This document shows, one piece after another, positions 710 through 33,716 of a DNA stretch of 33,716 nucleotides. Every line of letters starts with the position of its first letter. Positions within the stretch are counted from its first letter, which is position 1. Source of the stretch: an uncultured Verrucomicrobiota bacterium (lineage in GTDB: Bacteria > Verrucomicrobiota > Verrucomicrobiia > Limisphaerales > UBA9464); assembly GCA_903880005.1 (NCBI GenBank), contig CAIRNV010000395.1, positions 1 through 33,716 on the forward strand, in the 5' to 3' direction. A model generated the notes under the pieces. It searched no databases. It was not told the DNA's origin and saw only the letters and a list, made by a program, of their open reading frames with translations. Both the position numbers and the translations under genes were made by a program.

Positions 710-770
710 CCCGGCCAAAGTCTCGGTTCGCCGCTGGATCGAAGTCGAGACGCGATTGCGCGGCCCCGTT

Positions 771-831
771 GGCGGCCGGGGACGGCCGCGCTCCCAGGGT
801 GGAGCCCACACGACGTCTTCGGGCTGCACCG
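771..831 (+). repeat. Truncated copy of the palindromic TIR element
   Basis: It carries the invariant core GCGGCCGGGGACGGCCGC (772-789, six-bp arms around a six-base loop), then 'gctcccaggg' and 'cgacgtcttcggg', as in the fuller copies at 12956-13110, 14526-14680 and 33541-33698. The left end with its terminal inverted repeat is missing. The fragment lies in the divergent gap between the SIS gene and the EF-hand gene. Confidence 0.75.
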
Positions 832-12863: not shown

Positions 12864-12955
12864 ATCGTGCGGCACGCGGGCGGCGGGCGTCGCGCAGCGG
12901 GGTGTGCGGATGCGGGAATGGGGACGCGATGGGCCAGCCGCAGGGCACCGTCAAG

Positions 12956-13110
12956 CCGTGCATCCCGAGGTTGTCGGCGGGATTTGGACGGGCAGCGGAG
13001 AGCTGACCGGTCCCGCAGGGCAGGAGCATGGAGTGGCGGCCGGGGACGGCCGCGCTCCCAGGGTTGAGATCACACGACGCTTTCGAGAACAACGACAACT
13101 TCGGGTTGAG
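12956..13110 (+). repeat. TIR element, copy 1
   Basis: It begins with the 15-bp end ccgtgcatcccgagg (12956-12970), identical to the ends of the 33541-33698 copy. It carries the core palindrome GCGGCCGGGGACGGCCGC (13036-13053) and finishes with a degraded right end (gacaacttcgggttgag). It starts 93 bases after the AsmA-like gene. There is no coding capacity of note. Confidence 0.8.
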
Positions 13111-13139
13111 CCCACCGTCAAAAAAAGACTCAAAAACCT

Positions 13140-13436
13140 GTTGAACAAATGTCGAAGGTGAGGCAACTCTCCTCCGTAGCCCGGTTCTTCAGCTGCTTGT
13201 TCAGCAAAGAATCGGGGTTCTTTGGGTAGGATGAAGTTTTAGGGAATGGACTTAAGAGTCCTTCCCAAGCGCTTTCCAAGGGGCCGTTGTTCAGTTCCTT
13301 GGAATCTCTACATAATCCTACTGAACTATTCTTGAAAATTCCCCGGGAAGTACGGTCATCCTCTGACTGGCTTGCCGGTTTGATTCGGACACCCCGGTTT
13401 CACGGCTTCGGCTGCGAGATCGGGGTGTCTTTTTTA
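13140..13436 (+). ncRNA. Candidate structured RNA ending in an intrinsic terminator
   Basis: This tract is AT-richer than its surroundings and carries several exact hairpins on either strand: CAAAGAA/TTCTTTG (13205-13211 with 13218-13224), a near-perfect GGGA..GGACT/AGTCC..TCCC stem (13242-13266), TTCCAAGG/CCTTGGAA (13274-13281 with 13297-13304), and a final stem followed by a T-run (13388-13435) that fixes the plus strand as the likely transcript. I do not recognise it as 6S, SRP, tmRNA or RNase P RNA, and no promoter can be assigned with confidence. Against this reading, a 90-codon frame is open on the minus strand (13130-13399) with no ATG, so the tract could instead be a decayed coding remnant. 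Confidence 0.35.
13388..13435 (+). terminator. Rho-independent terminator
   Basis: The arms GACACCCC (13388-13395) and GGGGTGTC (13422-13429) pair fully and are followed directly by six T residues (13430-13435). The 26-base loop contains further possible pairing. The closest plus-strand gene upstream is the AsmA-like gene ending at 12863, so the site either ends a long 3' untranslated region or a separate RNA from 13140 onward. Confidence 0.7.
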
Positions 13437-13625
13437 CCCTGCCGCCACCCGTCATGCTGTAGGCCGCGTGCCCCACGCGGCGGCATGAATGCCACATCCT
13501 CGACGCGCCGGGTCGGGAAACCCCGGACCCCTTCCCTTCCAGACCAACGTTCCACGGCCGCCCGCAAAACGATAGAAGACCCCAGCCACCTCTCCCGTAC
13601 CGATCCCGGGTGCGCCGCGACCAAC

Positions 13626-14024
13626 ATCGAGTCCACTCGAATCGATCCCCGGCCCACTCCAGCAAGATTTGGGCGCACTCGAACCGACTTGAGGTGCACC
13701 GCAACCAATCTCTGGTGCATCTCAACTCATCTCGAGTCCGCTCGAACCAATCTCGGGTCCACTCCAACAAGGTTCGAGTGCACTCCAACCGACTTGAGGT
13801 GAACTCCAACCCTTCTCGGGCGCACTGCAACCCATCTCGAGTCCACTCGAACCAATCTTGAGTCCACTCCAACAAGGTTCGAGCGCACTCCAACCGACTT
13901 GAGGTGAACTCCAACCCTTCTCGGGCGCACTGCAACCCATCTCGGGTCCGCTCGAACCTATCTCGGGTCCACTCCAACAAGGTTCGAGTGCACTCCAACC
14001 GACTTGAGGTGCATCTCATCAAGG
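13626..14024. repeat. 21-bp minisatellite with a 105-bp higher-order period
   Basis: Nineteen consecutive 21-bp units fill exactly 399 bases. Most contain a core like 'ccactccaac'. The units come in a repeating order of five types (A-E): a diverged set at 13626-13730, then near-identical sets at 13731-13835 and 13836-13940, then four units at 13941-14024. Because 21 is a multiple of three, every frame gives heptapeptide repeats. The plus strand reads blocks such as SRVHSNK and is broken by a stop at 13859-13861. The minus strand is open across the array with blocks such as TRTLLEW and TRDGLQC. Minus-strand sequence beyond the array reads as non-protein-like, so I do not call a gene. Confidence 0.85.
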
Positions 14025-14042: not shown

Positions 14043-14184
14043 AGGCCTGGACGAGGCAGTTGGGACGGAAGCGATGGCGCAGCCGATTCCTCTGGAAGAC
14101 GAGGAGTGAGCGAGGCGCGGTCCGGTACGAGGCTTGTAACGAGCGAACGACGGAGGATTTGCGGGAGCAGATCGAGCAAGCACG
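14043..14184 (-). repeat. Right copy of the dispersed inverted repeat
   Basis: The reverse complement of this segment aligns with 1-138, with about one mismatch in five and identical runs around the 'tcgttcgctcgttac' block. It begins right after the minisatellite and ends about 340 bases before the second TIR element. The pair brackets 14 kb in inverted orientation. Confidence 0.75.
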
Positions 14185-14482: not shown

Positions 14483-14525
14483 AATCTGGCGCACGAGGGT
14501 GCGGCATCGTTGCCGCAGCCGAACC

Positions 14526-14680
14526 GCGCATCCCGAAATTTTTGGTGGGATGCGCACGGACAGCGGGTGGCGCACCGGTCCCGCGAGGCGGGAGCATGGA
14601 TGGGCGGCCGGGGACGGCCGCGGTCCCAGGGTTGAGCGCATACGAAGTCTTCGGGACCACCCACAACTTCGGGATGAACG
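14526..14680 (+). repeat. TIR element, copy 2
   Basis: Ends are CATCCCGAA (14529-14537) and its exact inverse TTCGGGATG (14668-14676). The interior keeps the GCGGCCGGGGACGGCCGC core, 'accggtcccgc' and 'ggagcatgg' in the same order and orientation as copy 1. It ends 70 bases before the chosen start of the epimerase gene, so it may sit in or next to that promoter. Confidence 0.8.
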
Positions 14681-16587: not shown

Positions 16588-16736
16588 GCGGCATTCTTCC
16601 GCTCGTCGCGTTCGTGGGGCTTCTTGTCGGATTGGCCGTCACGTTCCTACTCGTGCGCGCCCGGTTGACGCGGCCGGGAGGTGCACGGGGACCATTCCTT
16701 GGGAGCACGGCCGTCCCCGGCCGCTGCATGAAGTAG
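16584..16736 (+). CDS. Short membrane ORF ending inside a tandem repeat
   Basis: A 50-residue ORF whose ATG overlaps the panB stop as ATGA, indicating translational coupling. Residues 4-24 form one hydrophobic helix (ILPLVAFVGLLVGLAVTFLLV) followed by RARLTRPGG, a start resembling anchored proteins such as RmuC, but too little is left to name it. From about residue 34 the sequence is repeat-derived, and it stops at the 'atgaagtag' that recurs in each unit of the array. Most likely it is the 5' end of a gene truncated by repeat insertion or expansion; a genuine small membrane protein is the alternative. Confidence 0.4.
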   Translation: MSGILPLVAFVGLLVGLAVTFLLVRARLTRPGGARGPFLGSTAVPGRCMK

Positions 16737-16737
16737 C

Positions 16738-17059
16738 GCCCGAGGACGGGCACGGTCCCAGGCCCGGCCGCTGTATGAAGTAGCGCCCGGGGACGGGCAC
16801 GGTCCCAGAGCCCGGCCGCTGCATGAAGTAGCGCCCGGGGACGGGCGCGGTCCCAGGGGCCGGCCGCTGCATGAAGTAGCGCCCGAGGACGGGCGCGGTC
16901 CCAGGGCCCGGCCGCTGCATGAAGTAGCGCCCGAGGACGGGCGCGGTCCCAGGGGCCGGCCGCTGCATGAAGTAGCGCCCGGGGACGGGCGCGGTCCCAG
17001 GCCCGGCCGCTGCATGAAGTAGCGCCCGAGGACGGGCGCGGTCCCAGGGCCGGCCCTTG
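16738..17059. repeat. 47-48-bp tandem array of palindromic units
   Basis: Units start with gcccg at 16738, 16785, 16833, 16881, 16929, 16977 and 17024: six complete and one partial. Each holds a small palindrome GCCCG-(A/G)GGA-CGGGC, then 'ggtcccag', 'ggccggccgctg' and 'atgaagtagc'. A related half unit lies just upstream (16709-16737). The order palindrome then 'g[g/c]tcccag' is the same as in the dispersed TIR element core, so the array is likely a tandem derivative of that family. It fills the gap between panB with its trailing ORF and the convergent giant protease, whose stop codon lies 13 bases away, so it could act as a two-sided transcription barrier. Confidence 0.9.
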
Positions 17060-17071
17060 CGGTCGTGAGGA

Positions 17072-20000
17072 TCAAGGCCCGGTGGCTGGAACCACGCGGA
17101 AGAACGTCGCCTCGTCGTCGCCCACGACAATCGGGAGCCTGAGCGTGTAGCCAGTGGCCGTCTGCGGCGCGCCGAAATCGACCCAAGTCATGGGTTGCTC
17201 CAGCAGCGAGGCGGTTTGCACGAGGTAGGCTTGGCCGGGAACGGAGTCGATCTCCACGACGGGCGGTTGTCCTGGCGCGAAGAAGAGCCGGGAGCTGGTG
17301 GGTGCGATGGAGATGGGCACGCCCACCCGGGGCAACGCGGCGCGGACGGCGAAAAGGGCCGTGTTGGTGGATTGGCTTCCCACGGCCAAGTACCAGACGC
17401 CGGACAAGTCTTCTAGGTCGTTGGTAGTCACGAGAACCAACTCCGGCTGAAGGCCCGGCTTGGGGAACGAATAGGTGCGAATGCCCGGGCCCGGCACCGA
17501 CCCTTGGCCCACGGCCAAGTTCACGTCGGCGTCGAGGTTGTAGATTTCAAACGCGACCGACGGCGAGCCTGGGGGAACGACGAAGCGGAACACGATCGAC
17601 TTGGCCGGATCGACGGACCGGGCGACGGGTTGATCGTCGAAGAGCGTCTCCACGTCGATTCGATCGAAGGAGATTGTTGCCGCGATGGTATAGGCCAAGG
17701 GAGCGGGATCGACGGGCAGGACGCCGATGTACCAGCGGCCGGGCCCCAGCGGCACGGGCTGCGACACCACCGTGATGGCGACCGACTCGACGTTGGTGCC
17801 CGGGTTGCTGGAGGCGTAGTCGAAGTTGTTGGTCCCGACGAGCGGCAGGCCTTTCCTGACGAAAAGGTTCACGTCGCCGGTCAGCTCCGTGAGCTGGAAG
17901 TTGGCGGTGGTCGCATTGTCCGGAACGTCGATGGCGAAGTATTGCATCGTGCCTGTCACGGCATTGGTGACGGTGACGGCGACGTTGTTGGTGAGCAGGA
18001 CGACGTCGGCGACGAACTCCGAGGCGACGATGTTGTAGCTGGCGGAATTGGTGCCGCGCGTGGCCACGGACAGGAACCATCGGCCGGGCTCGAGCGGGGC
18101 GGGGGTGGACGACTGCGTGATGGCGATGACCTCGGGCGTCGTGCCGCGGTTGGTGCTCGCGTAGGAGTACAGGAAGGGACGTGGCAAGACGGGTGTCCTC
18201 GCGAGGTACAAGTCCACGTCGTCGGTCATGGCCGGGATCTCGAAGGCCGCGCCGAGTGCGTTGCTGCTGACGTCGAAGGCGTAGTAATCGAGGTAGCCGG
18301 GCGTGGTGCCCGAGCGCGTGAAGGGCACGCCATTGGCCAGGACGACCAAGCCGATGTCGAGGTCGGCTTGGACGGCAAACGGCTGCGGATCCGGATAGGG
18401 GTTGATGACCGTGATGTAGTAGCGCTGGCCCTGGGGCAAGATGGGCGGCGCATTCGTTCCCACGACAAACGGGTTGGTGGGTGCGAAGACGTCACCGGGG
18501 TCATTGCCGGTTGGGATACCCGAGTCGCTGTAAAGCATGGGCAGGTACACCCCGGAAAACACCGTGTTGGTGGCAGCCCGGGCCTCCAAGGGAACATCCA
18601 CGCGGAAGTAGGCGCTTTCGCCCGGGGCCAGGTTGCCGGAGTAAGGCACGCCGTTGGTGAGCCGAACCACGGGCCGGTTGGTTTGCATGAACGTGAGTCG
18701 AAGCTCCCAGCTATCGAGCACGCCCGCCACGCGGCCGCGATCATCCGAAAGCTCCAGCGTCCAGCGCCCCGTGCCGGACTTGCCGAGGACCGGCTCGAAG
18801 CTTTCCTCGGGCAGGTAGCTCAACTCGGCCCCCAGTTGCTCGAGGACGAACGTGTCCATCACGACGCCCTGTGGGGACCCGTTCGTGGGAACAGGCTGGG
18901 GCGTCGTCGCGGCGATCGCCACGTCCACGCGGTTCGACAGGGTGCGGAACCGGAAATCCGCGCGAACCCAATTCGTCGTGAGGTCAACGGTTTGGTCGAT
19001 CTGGCCGTTGATGTAGATGGCGGCGGTGACGGGGTTGGTGGACGCGGGATGCGCACGAAGCTGGACGGAGCCGCGGAAGCGGGTGCCGGTGGGAGACTGG
19101 CTGCGGAATGCGGCCGCGCCATTTCCAAGGGCGAGGGCTTGGCTGCCCGTCTGGGCGTCCGCACCCAGGAACTCCACGGAGACGTCATTGGTCAGGACGG
19201 TCCATCCATCCACGATGGTGCCGGGCCTGCGAATGCCGGGTGCGATGCCCTCGAACGAATTGCTGGCGACCAAGATGGGGCTGGCGTTGGTACCGAGGTA
19301 GGGCGGCGCGGCGAACTTCACCATGCCTTGGGAGAGGTTGGTTCGATCGCTGAAGACGGCGTAGGTGGCGTTGGTGGTCACGTCGCTGACCTGGACCAAG
19401 GCGGGCGGTCCCGCGACGACGACGGGCTGGCCGGCGGCGTTCAGGAAGACGGCGCTGACCGATCCGGGGCCGTTGCCCCATGGCGGATCGAATCCGACGA
19501 GCAACGCCGGCGTGGCGAGACCGGACTCGGGGCCCCATGCGCCAAAGACGATGCCCCGGTTGTCCGGATAGGCTTGGACCCAACCCTCGAGGGTGAAGCC
19601 AAGCCCGGGATCAATGGGAAGAACGGGCGTGCGCGCCTCGGCGGTAACACCCACGAAGCGGAGGCCGGTGTCGATCTGGCCGGGGACGAATTGCGAGAAG
19701 CCCAGCAAGGCCGTGTCGTTCAACCCGAGGACGTCGTTGCCATTGTTGTCGAAGGGCCACAAGGCGGCCAAACCCTCCGATTGACGCGAGGGAAGCTTCC
19801 CGAAACCCACCGTGCCATCGGCGTAAATCTCGCGGATCTCATTGGTGGTCAGGGGCCGACGCCAATAGCCGACGTCATCGAGGGCGGTGGCGGCCCTGGA
19901 GGTGCTGAAGCCCCGCGTGGGATCATTCGCAAGGCTGAGACGTTGATTGGAGGGCAATCGGACCGGGCCAATGTTGGAGGAGGCGACCCGGACGCCATTC

Positions 20001-30326: not shown

Positions 30327-31211
30327 TCACTTGGGAAGGTTCTTCACCTGCCGCGCGCGGCCGGTGAGGTAGGAAACCCGGATCAAACCGTTCGTATAAC
30401 CGAACCGGGGCGCCTCCACGACGTCGGCCGGCCCCGGCATCAACAGCCCGCCCGGCGTGCGCGGCAGCAGGACCGACCCCGGGGCCACGGCCAGCACCAC
30501 GTCCGATCCCGGCGGCACCGGGTTGCCCTGCGCGTCGCGCAGGCCCGCATACGTGAGGTCCGAGACGCGTCCGCTCGGGTCAAAGGCGATGAACGGGAGC
30601 AAGGGCACGGAGTCGAGGTCCTCCCACATCTGGAAGGGACTGCCCAATCGGCGGTCGTAGTGCTCCGCCAGGCGGATACCGGGGAAGACCAACGGGAACG
30701 GCACATGGGCCAACGCCAGCCGATGCGGGCGCAGCGCGGGGACCGGCCCGCCGGGAAGCTCCGCGCCGGCGTACATCTCGCGGGGGAAAACCACCCCGGC
30801 CGGCAAGTGCCGCCACTCGGTAAGGTAGCGGGGGCGTTCGACCCCGGGCTGCTCGCCCATGCGTCGCTGGCTATAGAGGGCGTACGAGGCGCCCTGGCCA
30901 AAGATGACGTTGGTCAGGCTGTTGAGCGCCTCGTTGCGGAAGGTGCCGAACTGGGCGCCCAACCCCTGCAACGGCCCTTGATGCACCCAGGCGTTGGTGG
31001 GCGCGAACACCATGAACACCGTGGCGCGGTTCTTGATCGCCAATTGCCGCGCCAGCCGAAGGTCGTCCAGCAACTGGCGATGCGCCGCCGTGAACGCGTT
31101 GGACTGCCCGAACCCCTTGAAGGCCGGCACCGACACGGCCATGAGGGCCCCGATGATCGCCAACACCACCAGCAGCTCGATCAGCGTGAACGCCGCCGTT
31201 CGACGCTTCAT
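30327..31211 (-). CDS. Verru_Chthon cassette protein D-like; GspH-like minor pseudopilin
   Basis: A 294-residue protein from the ATG at 31211 (an in-frame ATG at 31235 would add eight residues). Leader MKRRTAA, then F8-T-L-I-E12 and helix LLVVLAIIGALMAVSVPAF, followed by QLLDDLRLARQLAIKNRATVFMVFAPT. The 'LARQxAIxNRxTV' run with its beta strand is the GspH/FimT signature. The -1 residue is Ala. It is four bases upstream of gene B and starts the tightly packed D-B-C-A group. Confidence 0.82.
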   Translation of the reverse strand: MKRRTAAFTLIELLVVLAIIGALMAVSVPAFKGFGQSNAFTAAHRQLLDDLRLARQLAIKNRATVFMVFAPTNAWVHQGPLQGLGAQFGTFRNEALNSLTNVIFGQGASYALYSQRRMGEQPGVERPRYLTEWRHLPAGVVFPREMYAGAELPGGPVPALRPHRLALAHVPFPLVFPGIRLAEHYDRRLGSPFQMWEDLDSVPLLPFIAFDPSGRVSDLTYAGLRDAQGNPVPPGSDVVLAVAPGSVLLPRTPGGLLMPGPADVVEAPRFGYTNGLIRVSYLTGRARQVKNLPK

Positions 31212-31286: not shown

Positions 31287-32024
31287 CTACTTCCAACTAT
31301 ACAGGTTGTCCGCGTTGACCGTGCCCTTCGCCGTCTGGCCCGCCGCCGGCTTGGTGAAGTCCACCTGGCCGTCCGTGCCCAACGAGAAGACCGCCACCGG
31401 GACGTTCAGGAACTCACGCTCGCCCGGCGCGCCAAAGAACGGGTTCCGAACGCGCCCGTCGTAGTCCAGGTCGAGGATCACGATATAGGGGAAGCCGAAC
31501 GGGTCGCGATACACGCCATCCACCTCGTCCACGCGGTCCGGCTTGCGGCCGGTCTCCGAGCGAACGGTGAGGAACACCTCCTGCTGAGGATTGAGTTCGT
31601 TGCCCTTGTTGATGAGCTGGCCGTTGATCGTGCGCGACTCGCGCAGGAGGATCGTGAGCAGCTCCGCATTCGAGATTTGCCAGGCATTGCCGGACGCGTT
31701 TCGAACCTGCGCGTAGTCCTGCTTCCCCCTGCTGGAAAAGACCTGCGCGCCGTCCTGCACCGTGCCGTAGGTGAAGTCCGGCCGGGCATCCGACACCGCC
31801 GCGCGGGTCTGCGTGGACGACGGCAGGCGGCTGTACTTCGTCTGGTACTGGCCAATCGCGCCCGCAAGGTTCGCGATCTGCGTCTGAGCCTGCTTGCGTC
31901 GGGCGTTCTTCTGCACCGCCGCGATGGCCGGGAGGGTCAGGCTCGCCAGGATCGCGATGATGGCGATCACCACCAGCAGCTCAATCAACGTGAAGCCGCC
32001 GCGCCGTTGGATTCGTGGGTTCAT
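31287..32024 (-). CDS. GspG-like pseudopilin (second)
   Basis: A 245-residue protein with leader MNPRIQRRGG ending in Gly (canonical -1), then F11-T-L-I-E15 and [19 protein letters not shown]. The helix extension KNARRKQAQTQIANLAGAIGQYQTKY and the late DPFGFPYIVILD plus SLGTDG resemble the DPWGNPY and SLGADG motifs of GspG, the major type II pseudopilin. It is longer than a usual GspG (about 140). It starts 78 bases after the first GspG-like gene ends, and gene D follows 75 bases later. The start is the ATG at 32024; the open frame continues upstream but a short leader is usual. Confidence 0.82.
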   Translation of the reverse strand: MNPRIQRRGGFTLIELLVVIAIIAILASLTLPAIAAVQKNARRKQAQTQIANLAGAIGQYQTKYSRLPSSTQTRAAVSDARPDFTYGTVQDGAQVFSSRGKQDYAQVRNASGNAWQISNAELLTILLRESRTINGQLINKGNELNPQQEVFLTVRSETGRKPDRVDEVDGVYRDPFGFPYIVILDLDYDGRVRNPFFGAPGEREFLNVPVAVFSLGTDGQVDFTKPAAGQTAKGTVNADNLYSWK

Positions 32025-32102: not shown

Positions 32103-32810
32103 TCAGTTCTTCCAGTTGCCGATCACCTGCTTCTGGCCCTTGACCACAATCTCGGCCCAGAGGTCGTAGCTGCCGGGGTTGTGGATGGGGTTGCTGGCGT
32201 TGTACCGCCATGGGTTCACGCGCGGCGCGGCCGGGATGGGCGGCGGATTGCGAGGGTCGTTGGCGGGCCATGGCACCGGCACCACCAACACCTCGATGTC
32301 CGGGTTCGACGAGATCTCCGCGTGCTGCGAGTCCTTGAAGTCCGCCCGGAACAACCGCCGCATCTGGTTGGTCGGGGCTGCGTTCACGAAGCCGTCCCGG
32401 TTGAAGAACGCCCGCACATGCGCGTCCGGATCCAGCCGGTTTGTCGGACGGTCGGTGTCGGCCAACGACACGAAGTAGCCGCCCGAGCCCTGCCGCACCA
32501 CGCCGACGCCGGTGAGCTCGTAGAAGAGTGGGTTCAACGCCGCGTTCACCAGCGGCATGCCGTCTGGGTTTCGTCCCGTGACGTTGTCCGGGGGATACAC
32601 GCCGTACTTGTCCTTGTAGGCGTCAATGAGCAGCACCAGCTTCGCCAACTCGGACTTCGTGCGGCTTTCCCGGATCCGAGCCGTCGCCTGGGGAGCCAAG
32701 CCCACGAGCAACCCTGCCAGGATCCCCATGATGGCGATCACGGCGAGCAACTCGATCAACGTGAAGCCCCGGCTTCGGGTCCTTCCGTCATGGCATACGC
32801 TCGATTTCAT
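32103..32810 (-). CDS. GspG-like pseudopilin (first)
   Basis: A 235-residue protein from the ATG at 32810. Leader MKSSVCHDGRTRSRG ends in Gly, then F16-T-L-I-E20 and LLAVIAIMGILAGLLVGLA. The extension reads ATARIRESRTKSELAKLVLLIDAYKDKYGVYPPD, with the 'YKDKYGVYPP' typical of GspG-like proteins. The C-terminal half is not recognisable beyond the general type; it contains VLVVPVPWPAND. A GTG nine codons upstream is an alternative start. It is the first of the pseudopilin genes on this strand, 39 bases after the antitoxin-like gene. Confidence 0.8.
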   Translation of the reverse strand: MKSSVCHDGRTRSRGFTLIELLAVIAIMGILAGLLVGLAPQATARIRESRTKSELAKLVLLIDAYKDKYGVYPPDNVTGRNPDGMPLVNAALNPLFYELTGVGVVRQGSGGYFVSLADTDRPTNRLDPDAHVRAFFNRDGFVNAAPTNQMRRLFRADFKDSQHAEISSNPDIEVLVVPVPWPANDPRNPPPIPAAPRVNPWRYNASNPIHNPGSYDLWAEIVVKGQKQVIGNWKN

Positions 32811-33144: not shown

Positions 33145-33435
33145 TCACGATCCGGCCAACGCGTGGTTCAACCGCCGCTGGTAGAAATACTCCTCCTGCT
33201 CGGTGAACCGGCGCGACACGATCACCCGCGCCAACTTGCCGTTGGTCCGGTACACGCTGAACACCCCAACCCCTGCCGCAGAGCGACCCAGGTTGAAGTA
33301 CCGCGCTTGCACCGCGAACCGGGCTGAATCCGGCAGCAACCGCACTGCGAACGGATCCTCAAACGACTCCTCGATCTCCGTTACCGTCAAAGATCCCGCG
33401 ACATCAAACGACGGATTGTTCCAGTCAAAGTCCAT
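33145..33435 (-). CDS. BrnT-like toxin
   Basis: A 96-residue protein resembling BrnT, a RelE-superfamily ribonuclease. It has an F-D-W-N start, then ESFEDPFAVRLLPD (BrnT: FxDPxxxxxPD), RYFNLGRS, VFSVYRTNGKLARVIVSRRFTEQEEYFY and QRRL. BrnT catalytic residues are Arg, Glu and Lys at the C-terminal strands; here Arg residues (SRRF) and E-E-Y are visible but the equivalence is not certain. It is the first gene of the minus-strand group and precedes its antitoxin. Confidence 0.72.
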   Translation of the reverse strand: MDFDWNNPSFDVAGSLTVTEIEESFEDPFAVRLLPDSARFAVQARYFNLGRSAAGVGVFSVYRTNGKLARVIVSRRFTEQEEYFYQRRLNHALAGS

Positions 33436-33465: not shown

Positions 33466-33493
33466 ATTCATTGTGAATACTTTGTATGTACAA
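33466..33493 (-). promoter_or_regulatory. Likely promoter/operator of the toxin-antitoxin pair
   Basis: An AT-rich patch 31 bases upstream of the toxin start contains two inverted repeats: ATTCA-TTG-TGAAT (33466-33478) and TTGT-atgt-ACAA (33482-33493). They are spaced one half-turn apart. Ribbon-helix-helix antitoxins usually bind such paired sites over the promoter. On the minus strand TTGTAC is a candidate -35 box; the -10 is unclear. Confidence 0.45.
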
Positions 33494-33540
33494 GCCGCCG
33501 CGGGATCGTGTCAATCACCCACTTCAGCCCCACCCGCGCC

Positions 33541-33698
33541 CCGTGCATCCCGAGGATTTGGGTCGTCCCGAAGACGTCGTGTGCGCTCAACCCTGGGAGC
33601 GCGGCCGTCCCCGGCCGCCACCCCATGCTCCCGCCCTGCGGGACCGGTCCGATCCCCGCTGCCCGCCCAGATGCCACCCACAACCTCGGGATGCACGG
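33541..33698 (-). repeat. TIR element, copy 3 (most complete)
   Basis: 158 bases bounded by perfect 15-bp terminal inverted repeats: ccgtgcatcccgagg (33541-33555) and its exact inverse (33684-33698). The interior, read on the minus strand, carries the GCGGCCGGGGACGGCCGC core and the same order of blocks as copies 1 and 2. It has no coding capacity. It is inserted upstream of the toxin-antitoxin promoter. Confidence 0.88.
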
Positions 33699-33716
33699 CC
33701 CGCGCCCAAACCCAGC

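Follow-up and report, generated by a model that had tools for sequence, protein, structure and literature searches.

Promoter-guided transposition in bacteria has been reported for few element families. It has been published for the ISKra4, ISLre2 and TnGBS elements (PMC3942029), and in that study the molecular contact with the promoter is only proposed. TnGBS and ISLre2 (p-MULT 3) insert upstream of sigmaA promoters at a distance given as 15–17 bp (PMC3942029) or 15–16 bp (PMC4701971), and the targeting by these elements has been assigned to a motif of the transposase (PMC3942029). The ISKra4 group (p-MULT 4) is characterized by target duplications of 8–9 bp, repeats of 18–39 bp and a terminal C, and the published promoter spacing is 13–17 bp from the repeat-genome junction (PMC3942029). 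Those elements of the group that have near-perfect repeats have promoters on both sides (Guerillot et al. 2014, PMC3942029). Four ISKra4 elements carry additional genes, which are described there as being of unknown function (PMC3942029) and which could include a DruA-like gene. The word MITE is absent from the main text of the same paper.

Here we analysed one whole contig (C395, 33,716 bases; the window) from a 5.02-Mb assembly that comprises 492 contigs and is 96.6% complete. The window contains a 158-bp repeat that works like the ISKra4 group, and our observations fit the published picture. As in that group, we find 9-bp duplications, near-perfect 25-bp repeats that end in C, predicted promoters at a fixed distance on either side and, in a partner element, a transposase related to the ISKra4 profile. 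Unlike that group, the repeat studied here is a gene-less 158-bp derivative with an embedded REP, and the partner element includes a DruA gene. The published spacing of 13–17 compares with 27 nt here, which is approximately one helical turn more unless the published count leaves the duplication out, in which case the two are nearly alike (18 nt here). We do not file the system as a confirmed ISKra4 member because of this spacing convention and because the transposase scores under the cut-off of its model. A fixed distance upstream of sigmaA promoters is also the property of TnGBS and ISLre2; however, these are autonomous and insert mostly in one orientation, whereas the MITE has the promoter on either side. 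The core of the repeat resembles the REP and REPIN sequences that occur with RAYT genes, as it is a palindrome with a conserved flank, found in inverted pairs and arrays with a RAYT-type gene among them, but one REP unit is here also embedded in a DDE-type MITE. MITEAba12 and other bacterial MITEs are likewise short and non-autonomous and have inverted repeats, a likeness by description. As promoter targeting is already published, the mechanism is known. Within the open-access literature searched, three features seem to be new, namely the use of promoter targeting by a MITE, the wider spacing and the presence of a DruA gene, and DruA paired with a transposase was not found in that literature.

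The two ends of the copy that lies close to the end of the contig form a perfect inverted repeat of 15 bp (CCGTGCATCCCGAGG). The initial annotation had described a non-coding repeat with such ends, and this holds exactly, at 158 bp and with the same boundaries; the consensus of the family extends the terminal inverted repeat to 25 bp. Four copies had been proposed for the window, of which three are full length and one is a fragment, with the ends refined to those in Table 1 (the fragment spans approximately 769–825). The two other full-length copies are oriented opposite to the copy at 33541. None of the open reading frames of at least 100 aa is contained in the MITE copies of the window, and frames run through two of the copies. 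The core GCGGCCGGGGACGGCCGC occurs exactly at 772, 13036, 14604 and 33601. When up to three mismatches are allowed, the window has 11 matches compared to 0.80 expected, a number reached by none of 100 shuffles; six of the 11 are units of the array at 16783–17039.

Table 1. Repeat copies, their target duplications and neighbouring features. Positions refer to the window unless another contig is named; promoter boxes are predictions.
Feature	Position	Strand	Remarks
MITE copy	33541..33698	(-)	158 bp; strand per family consensus; contig end 18 bp further
Target-site duplication, 33541 copy	33533..33540	.	8 bp, CCCGCGCC; one base short of the usual 9
Target-site duplication, second copy, 33541 copy	33699..33706	.	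CCCGCGCC
REP unit within 33541 MITE	33593..33618	(-)	GCGGCCGGGGACGGCCGCGCTCCCAG
Predicted -35 box TTGACA at 33541 copy	33509..33514	(-)	18 nt past the 8-bp duplication; offset 26 from element end
Predicted -10-like box TACATA at 33541 copy	33485..33490	(-)	18-bp spacer
96-aa ORF downstream of the predicted promoter	33145..33435	(-)	BrnT_toxin weakly matched (19.2 bits, cut-off 34.5; E 0.0015)
MITE copy	12956..13113	(+)	158 bp between its duplications; full length
Target duplication, 12956 copy	12947..12955	.	ACCGTCAAG; 8/9 identical to partner
Target duplication, partner, 12956 copy	13114..13122	.	ACCGTCAAA
Predicted -35-like TTGAAC at 12956 copy	13141..13146	(+)	18 nt past the duplication
REP unit within 12956 MITE	13036..13061	(+)	
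MITE copy	14524..14680	(+)	157 bp; full length
REP unit within 14524 MITE	14604..14629	(+)	
MITE fragment	769..825	(+)	covers model positions 82–138, with the REP and some of the right half
REP-type array outside any MITE	16670..17103	.	47–48 bp period
RAYT-type gene	L041 (contig C46) 1028–1846	minus	REP pairs on both sides

To count duplications across the genome, the element was bounded at CCGTGCAT...ATGCACGG. We observed a mean identity between the two flanks of 71% at a length of 9 bp, compared to 26–36% at the other lengths tested (4–8 and 10–13). At least six of nine positions agree in 29 of the 40 two-ended copies (11 copies at nine, 8 at eight), compared to approximately 4% of shuffled pairings. 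The copy at 33541 is among the 11 copies that fall below six of nine at 9 bp, because its duplication has 8 bp (CCCGCGCC). The copy at 14524 also falls below under the computed boundaries; by reading, it has a weak duplication (GCAGCCGAA / CCCACCGAA, 6/9). By its ends and target duplications, the 158-bp repeat is a MITE that transposed, as the initial annotation had suggested from its form: it is short, it lacks a transposase gene, and its 25-bp ends are shared with an insertion sequence. At four places, element ends lie back to back with exactly 9 bp between them (L282 7395–7441, L283 539–585, L243 130–176 and L183 2361–2407). These may be either tandem insertions that share one duplication or traces of circular intermediates with joined ends.

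Searching the genome with the 158-bp copy yielded at least 40 places that cover at least 130 of the 158 positions (40 of 166 first-look candidates scored); the repeat is thus dispersed, as had been expected. The core is found at 112 genome sites with up to one mismatch (reversed control: 1) and the end pattern at 98 sites with up to three mismatches (control: 5). Chance similarity was rejected by the core shuffles and the reversed-pattern controls. Furthermore, a profile built from 28 copies was run on 82 stretches, which were taken around sites among the matches listed for the core or the end pattern. This resulted in at least 96 matches: 43 with at least 140 model positions, 28 with 60–139 and 25 that are shorter, 22 of which overlap a REP. 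From the 43 and 28 longer matches in the 5.02-Mb assembly, the load is approximately one recognisable copy per 70 kb. The very high genomic load that had been deduced from four copies in 34 kb was thus overstated, and the window is locally dense. The 40 two-ended copies have a median identity to the consensus of 90%, and three of them measure about 128, 143 and 182 bp.

The more informative feature lies beyond what the initial annotation had in view, namely the position of the copies relative to promoters. In 53 of 242 flanks, a TTG starts exactly 27 nt from the element end, that is, 18 nt past the 9-bp duplication (23/104 in the host genome, 16/69 in relatives and 14/69 in named genomes). At offset 26 there are 9 such flanks and at offset 28 there are 6, and the other offsets have a mean of 4.0 (sd 1.95, maximum 8). 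The three sets overlap, since several named records represent assemblies that are also among the relatives, and shared flanks were removed. Left out were also 11 of 253 flanks that contain the end of another element, seven of which had TTG at 27 (60 before, 53 after); earlier counts per set excluded flanks shorter than 40 nt and flanks whose first 30 nt had already been counted. At offsets 13–17, we found no clear excess of TTG (4, 6, 8, 4 and 3 of 253 flanks). For the 40 two-ended host copies, TTG is at 27 in 18 of 80 flanks, a few of which are truncated by contig ends. When offsets 26–28 are considered, 21 of these copies have TTG on at least one side (right only 11, left only 8, both 2) where the background rate would give approximately four, and 19 have it on neither side.

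The sequence that follows the TTG resembles a promoter. In an alignment of 23 flanks that have TTG at the register or next to it, TTG[A/C]C is followed at +24, +25 and +29 by T/A (16/23), A (12/23) and T (11/23), which as a sequence pattern is that of a sigma70-type -35 and -10 with an 18-bp spacer. TANNNT at a spacing of 16–19 nt follows 10 of the 53 TTGs at the register, compared to 9 of 291 other TTGs. The register is seen on either side of the element and also for elements of relatives that have other interiors, and it holds in the other genomes taken together. Judged from these motifs, MITE copies tend to lie upstream of sigma70-type promoters and to keep a fixed register to them. For instance, the copy at 33541 has a predicted promoter TTGACA-N18-TACATA on the minus strand, upstream of the 96-aa open reading frame. 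By textbook promoter geometry, the 9-bp duplication would presumably fall near -62 to -54 from the start site. An element from cyanobacteria that is annotated as ISLre2 (L302–L306) has duplications of 8–9 bp at four of five places fetched. None of the 10 ends has TTG at offset 27, and the element thus gives no calibration of the published distance. Further plasmid relatives are almost all cyanobacterial, and a phage search gave no match.

A transposase with matching ends had been anticipated, and it is found in other genomes. An intact element of 2199 bp that is bounded by MITE-type ends lies at 93–2291 of L293 (JADLFD010000012.1, Verrucomicrobiales). It comprises two adjoining open frames with no stop in either. 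One frame encodes a DruA-domain protein (PF14236, 4.1e-23), and a 415-aa stretch matches the ISKra4-family transposase profile over residues 7–408 (4.8e-45), with 154 bits under a curated cut-off of 205. A similar element of 2195 bp (L215) has a DruA ORF (2e-25), and its transposase frame is interrupted by a single in-frame stop. A third element (L165) has the same ends and is internally deleted to 781 bp; by reading, it has an N-terminal stretch like the DruA ORF, for which Pfam gave no DruA match. No clear target duplication was seen for L293 and L215. The search of the host assembly yielded no insertion sequence bounded by matching ends, and gaps may hide one. Only two relatives of the ISKra4-like transposase were found in the host, 36% and 28% identical, on contigs C384 and C200. 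Both genes lie near contig ends, and no matching ends were detected in the stretches searched, which stop at the contig ends.

The initial annotation had described the inner palindrome as REP-like and had asked for a RAYT. Beyond the MITE, the unit of 26–37 nt forms inverted pairs and arrays of about 92 nt, and one array holds a RAYT-type gene. With up to two mismatches, the REP GCGSCCGNGGACGGSCGCGSTCCCAG has 149 sites in the genome (reversed control: 0). Among 139 REPs in the stretches searched, 60 lie inside and 79 outside MITE matches of at least 60 positions. The gene on contig C46 is flanked by REPs on both sides if its start is the Met near 1678 (by reading). It has 30.1 bits for PF01797 (cut-off 23) and 74.9 bits for NF047646, the REP-associated tyrosine transposase, which is just under the cut-off of 80; it is likely the partner of the REP family. 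The inner palindrome of the MITE is a true REP. Because REP arrays exist outside the MITE together with a RAYT-type gene, the unit inside the MITE is one member of a REP family with an existence of its own, and the two repeat families appear to travel as one. The array at 16670–17103 of the window consists of a GCGCCCG...CGGGCGC variant and is opened by one inverted GCGGCCG-type unit. A second Y1_Tnp gene is located on contig C432 (L300 1438–2211, plus); in the 2.2-kb stretch that contains it, no REP of the MITE-core type was found with up to five mismatches.

We find the end pattern with up to two mismatches in 31 of 96 genomes searched (host included), the richest having 293, 211, 92 and 68 sites. 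The same MITE is present in a genome of the same genus (G004, L113), with 89% identity at the best place. In a genome of the same order (G061), elements of 163 bp have the same ends and 9-bp duplications and a different interior without REP. When 84,980 species genomes were scanned for exact matches, 65 stretches were obtained, 63 of them titled Verrucomicrobiota; the others are from Singulisphaera acidiphila and a Syntrophobacteraceae genome. Many of the 65 come from metagenome-assembled genomes labelled Akkermansia muciniphila (CAMDGV, CAMAUY, CAMDJH, CAMAWP and CAMBEJ records), and this label is probably wrong.

The relatives also bear on the state of the sites before insertion. We searched the joined flanks of five insertions in the genus (nine genomes, host included). 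The MITE is absent from 13 of 13 matching loci fetched from relatives, one of which (L313) stops 42 nt after the aligned sequence. As none of the alignments extends across the junction, no base-exact empty site was found among the 13 loci, and the empty sites that had been asked for are seen only as loci that lack the element. At a ParA-like locus (KGGVGKTT motif, by reading), a -35 TTGC[C/A]A is recognisable, likewise by reading, in four of seven MITE-less relatives (L312, L313, L315 and L317), and the promoter thus predates the insertion where it is seen. The remaining three give no alignment in the intergenic stretch. A different repeat, some 60 nt in length (GAAGCAGATCGAGCAAGCACGGCCGACC...), is also dispersed; it is found in L316 and on many contigs, with many copies in the host and in G004.

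We conclude that the repeat is very probably a non-autonomous MITE that is moved in trans by an ISKra4-like transposase, guided by promoters, and that carries a REP of the host. The DDE transposase that mobilises the MITE would come from an insertion sequence of ISKra4-like (prokaryotic Mutator-like) type with the same 25-bp ends. This transposase would join the ends to cuts staggered by 9 bp, by which the target is duplicated. Many sites may be chosen by contact with a promoter, probably one that is occupied by RNA polymerase holoenzyme, and the element would land upstream of the -35 box, separated from it by the duplication and approximately 18 nt. Either end could face the promoter because the two ends are near-perfect complements. 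The REP may have been captured by an ancestral MITE; a MITE that carries one host REP unit would multiply the REP, and RAYT may spread REP separately.

The fixed register could alternatively stem from selection and not from targeting, if insertions were random and those in the register survived or were favoured because the element end acts as an upstream control element. Many copies are old, as judged from their identity to the consensus, and selection thus had time to act; furthermore, only about half of the copies have TTG at the register. However, the peak is one base wide, it has no second peak a helical turn away, and the same register is seen for elements with unrelated interiors. It is also seen at some ends of insertion sequences that are 100% identical between copies (L133 and L135; two of eight such), and promoter targeting has been published for the ISKra4-type transposase group (PMC3942029). 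We thus consider selection unlikely. Less probable still is a REP- or REPIN-type repeat that is moved by RAYT and in which the inverted repeats are incidental. It would agree with the core being the REP of the genome, with the RAYT-type gene among REPs on contig C46 and with the strong hairpin into which the 158-bp element folds (z -6.2). However, the 9-bp duplications and 25-bp ends belong to a DDE element, and an insertion sequence is bounded by such ends too. Moreover, many REPs lie outside any MITE match, and the elements of G061, G019 and G025 have MITE ends without the REP core. The DDE-type ends and duplications lead us to reject REP/RAYT as the sole mover of the MITE.

A further question is which protein reads the promoter. 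A DruA-domain ORF adjoins the transposase in two partner elements, and the deleted third has the similar N-terminal stretch, which would suit a role of the DruA-domain protein in picking the promoter in place of the transposase. Yet ISLre2 and TnGBS target promoters as well, and there the targeting is assigned to the transposase motif (PMC3942029), so that we regard this role of DruA as rather doubtful. About as tentative is the proposal that RNA polymerase at promoters serves as a ruler for an insertion sequence with DruA and an ISKra4-like transposase, that this ruler reaches one helical turn beyond that of TnGBS and ISKra4, with DruA as the adaptor, and that the MITEs of this insertion sequence carried REPs to promoter-proximal sites. 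If this were true, two mobile repeat systems would be coupled and strong hairpins would be placed just upstream of many promoters. The MITE is compact, and its numerous natural insertions, which span several genera of a single order, provide evidence of a ruler at one-base resolution. It also offers a small system in which the reader of the promoter could be sought. The multiplication of a REP unit by a second, unrelated transposition system would be a route of REP spread besides RAYT.

Lastly, we describe additional observations. DruA-domain genes adjoin ISKra4-like transposases in L216, L293 and L215 and, by reading, in L222 (host contig C384). The DruA family is named after the Druantia anti-phage system. 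Our observation suggests that the DruA of this defence system is related to a gene of insertion sequences, which bears on the origin of that defence gene. The window also contains an inverted repeat pair of 140 nt (1–140 and 14045–14184, 85% complementary) that is separate from the MITE, and a tandem repeat at 13599–14011 with spacings in multiples of 21 nt. Furthermore, a coding motif of 72 nt, which we take to be a type IV pilin-like N-terminal segment, is repeated at 1955–2026, 31123–31194, 31927–31998 and 32698–32769.
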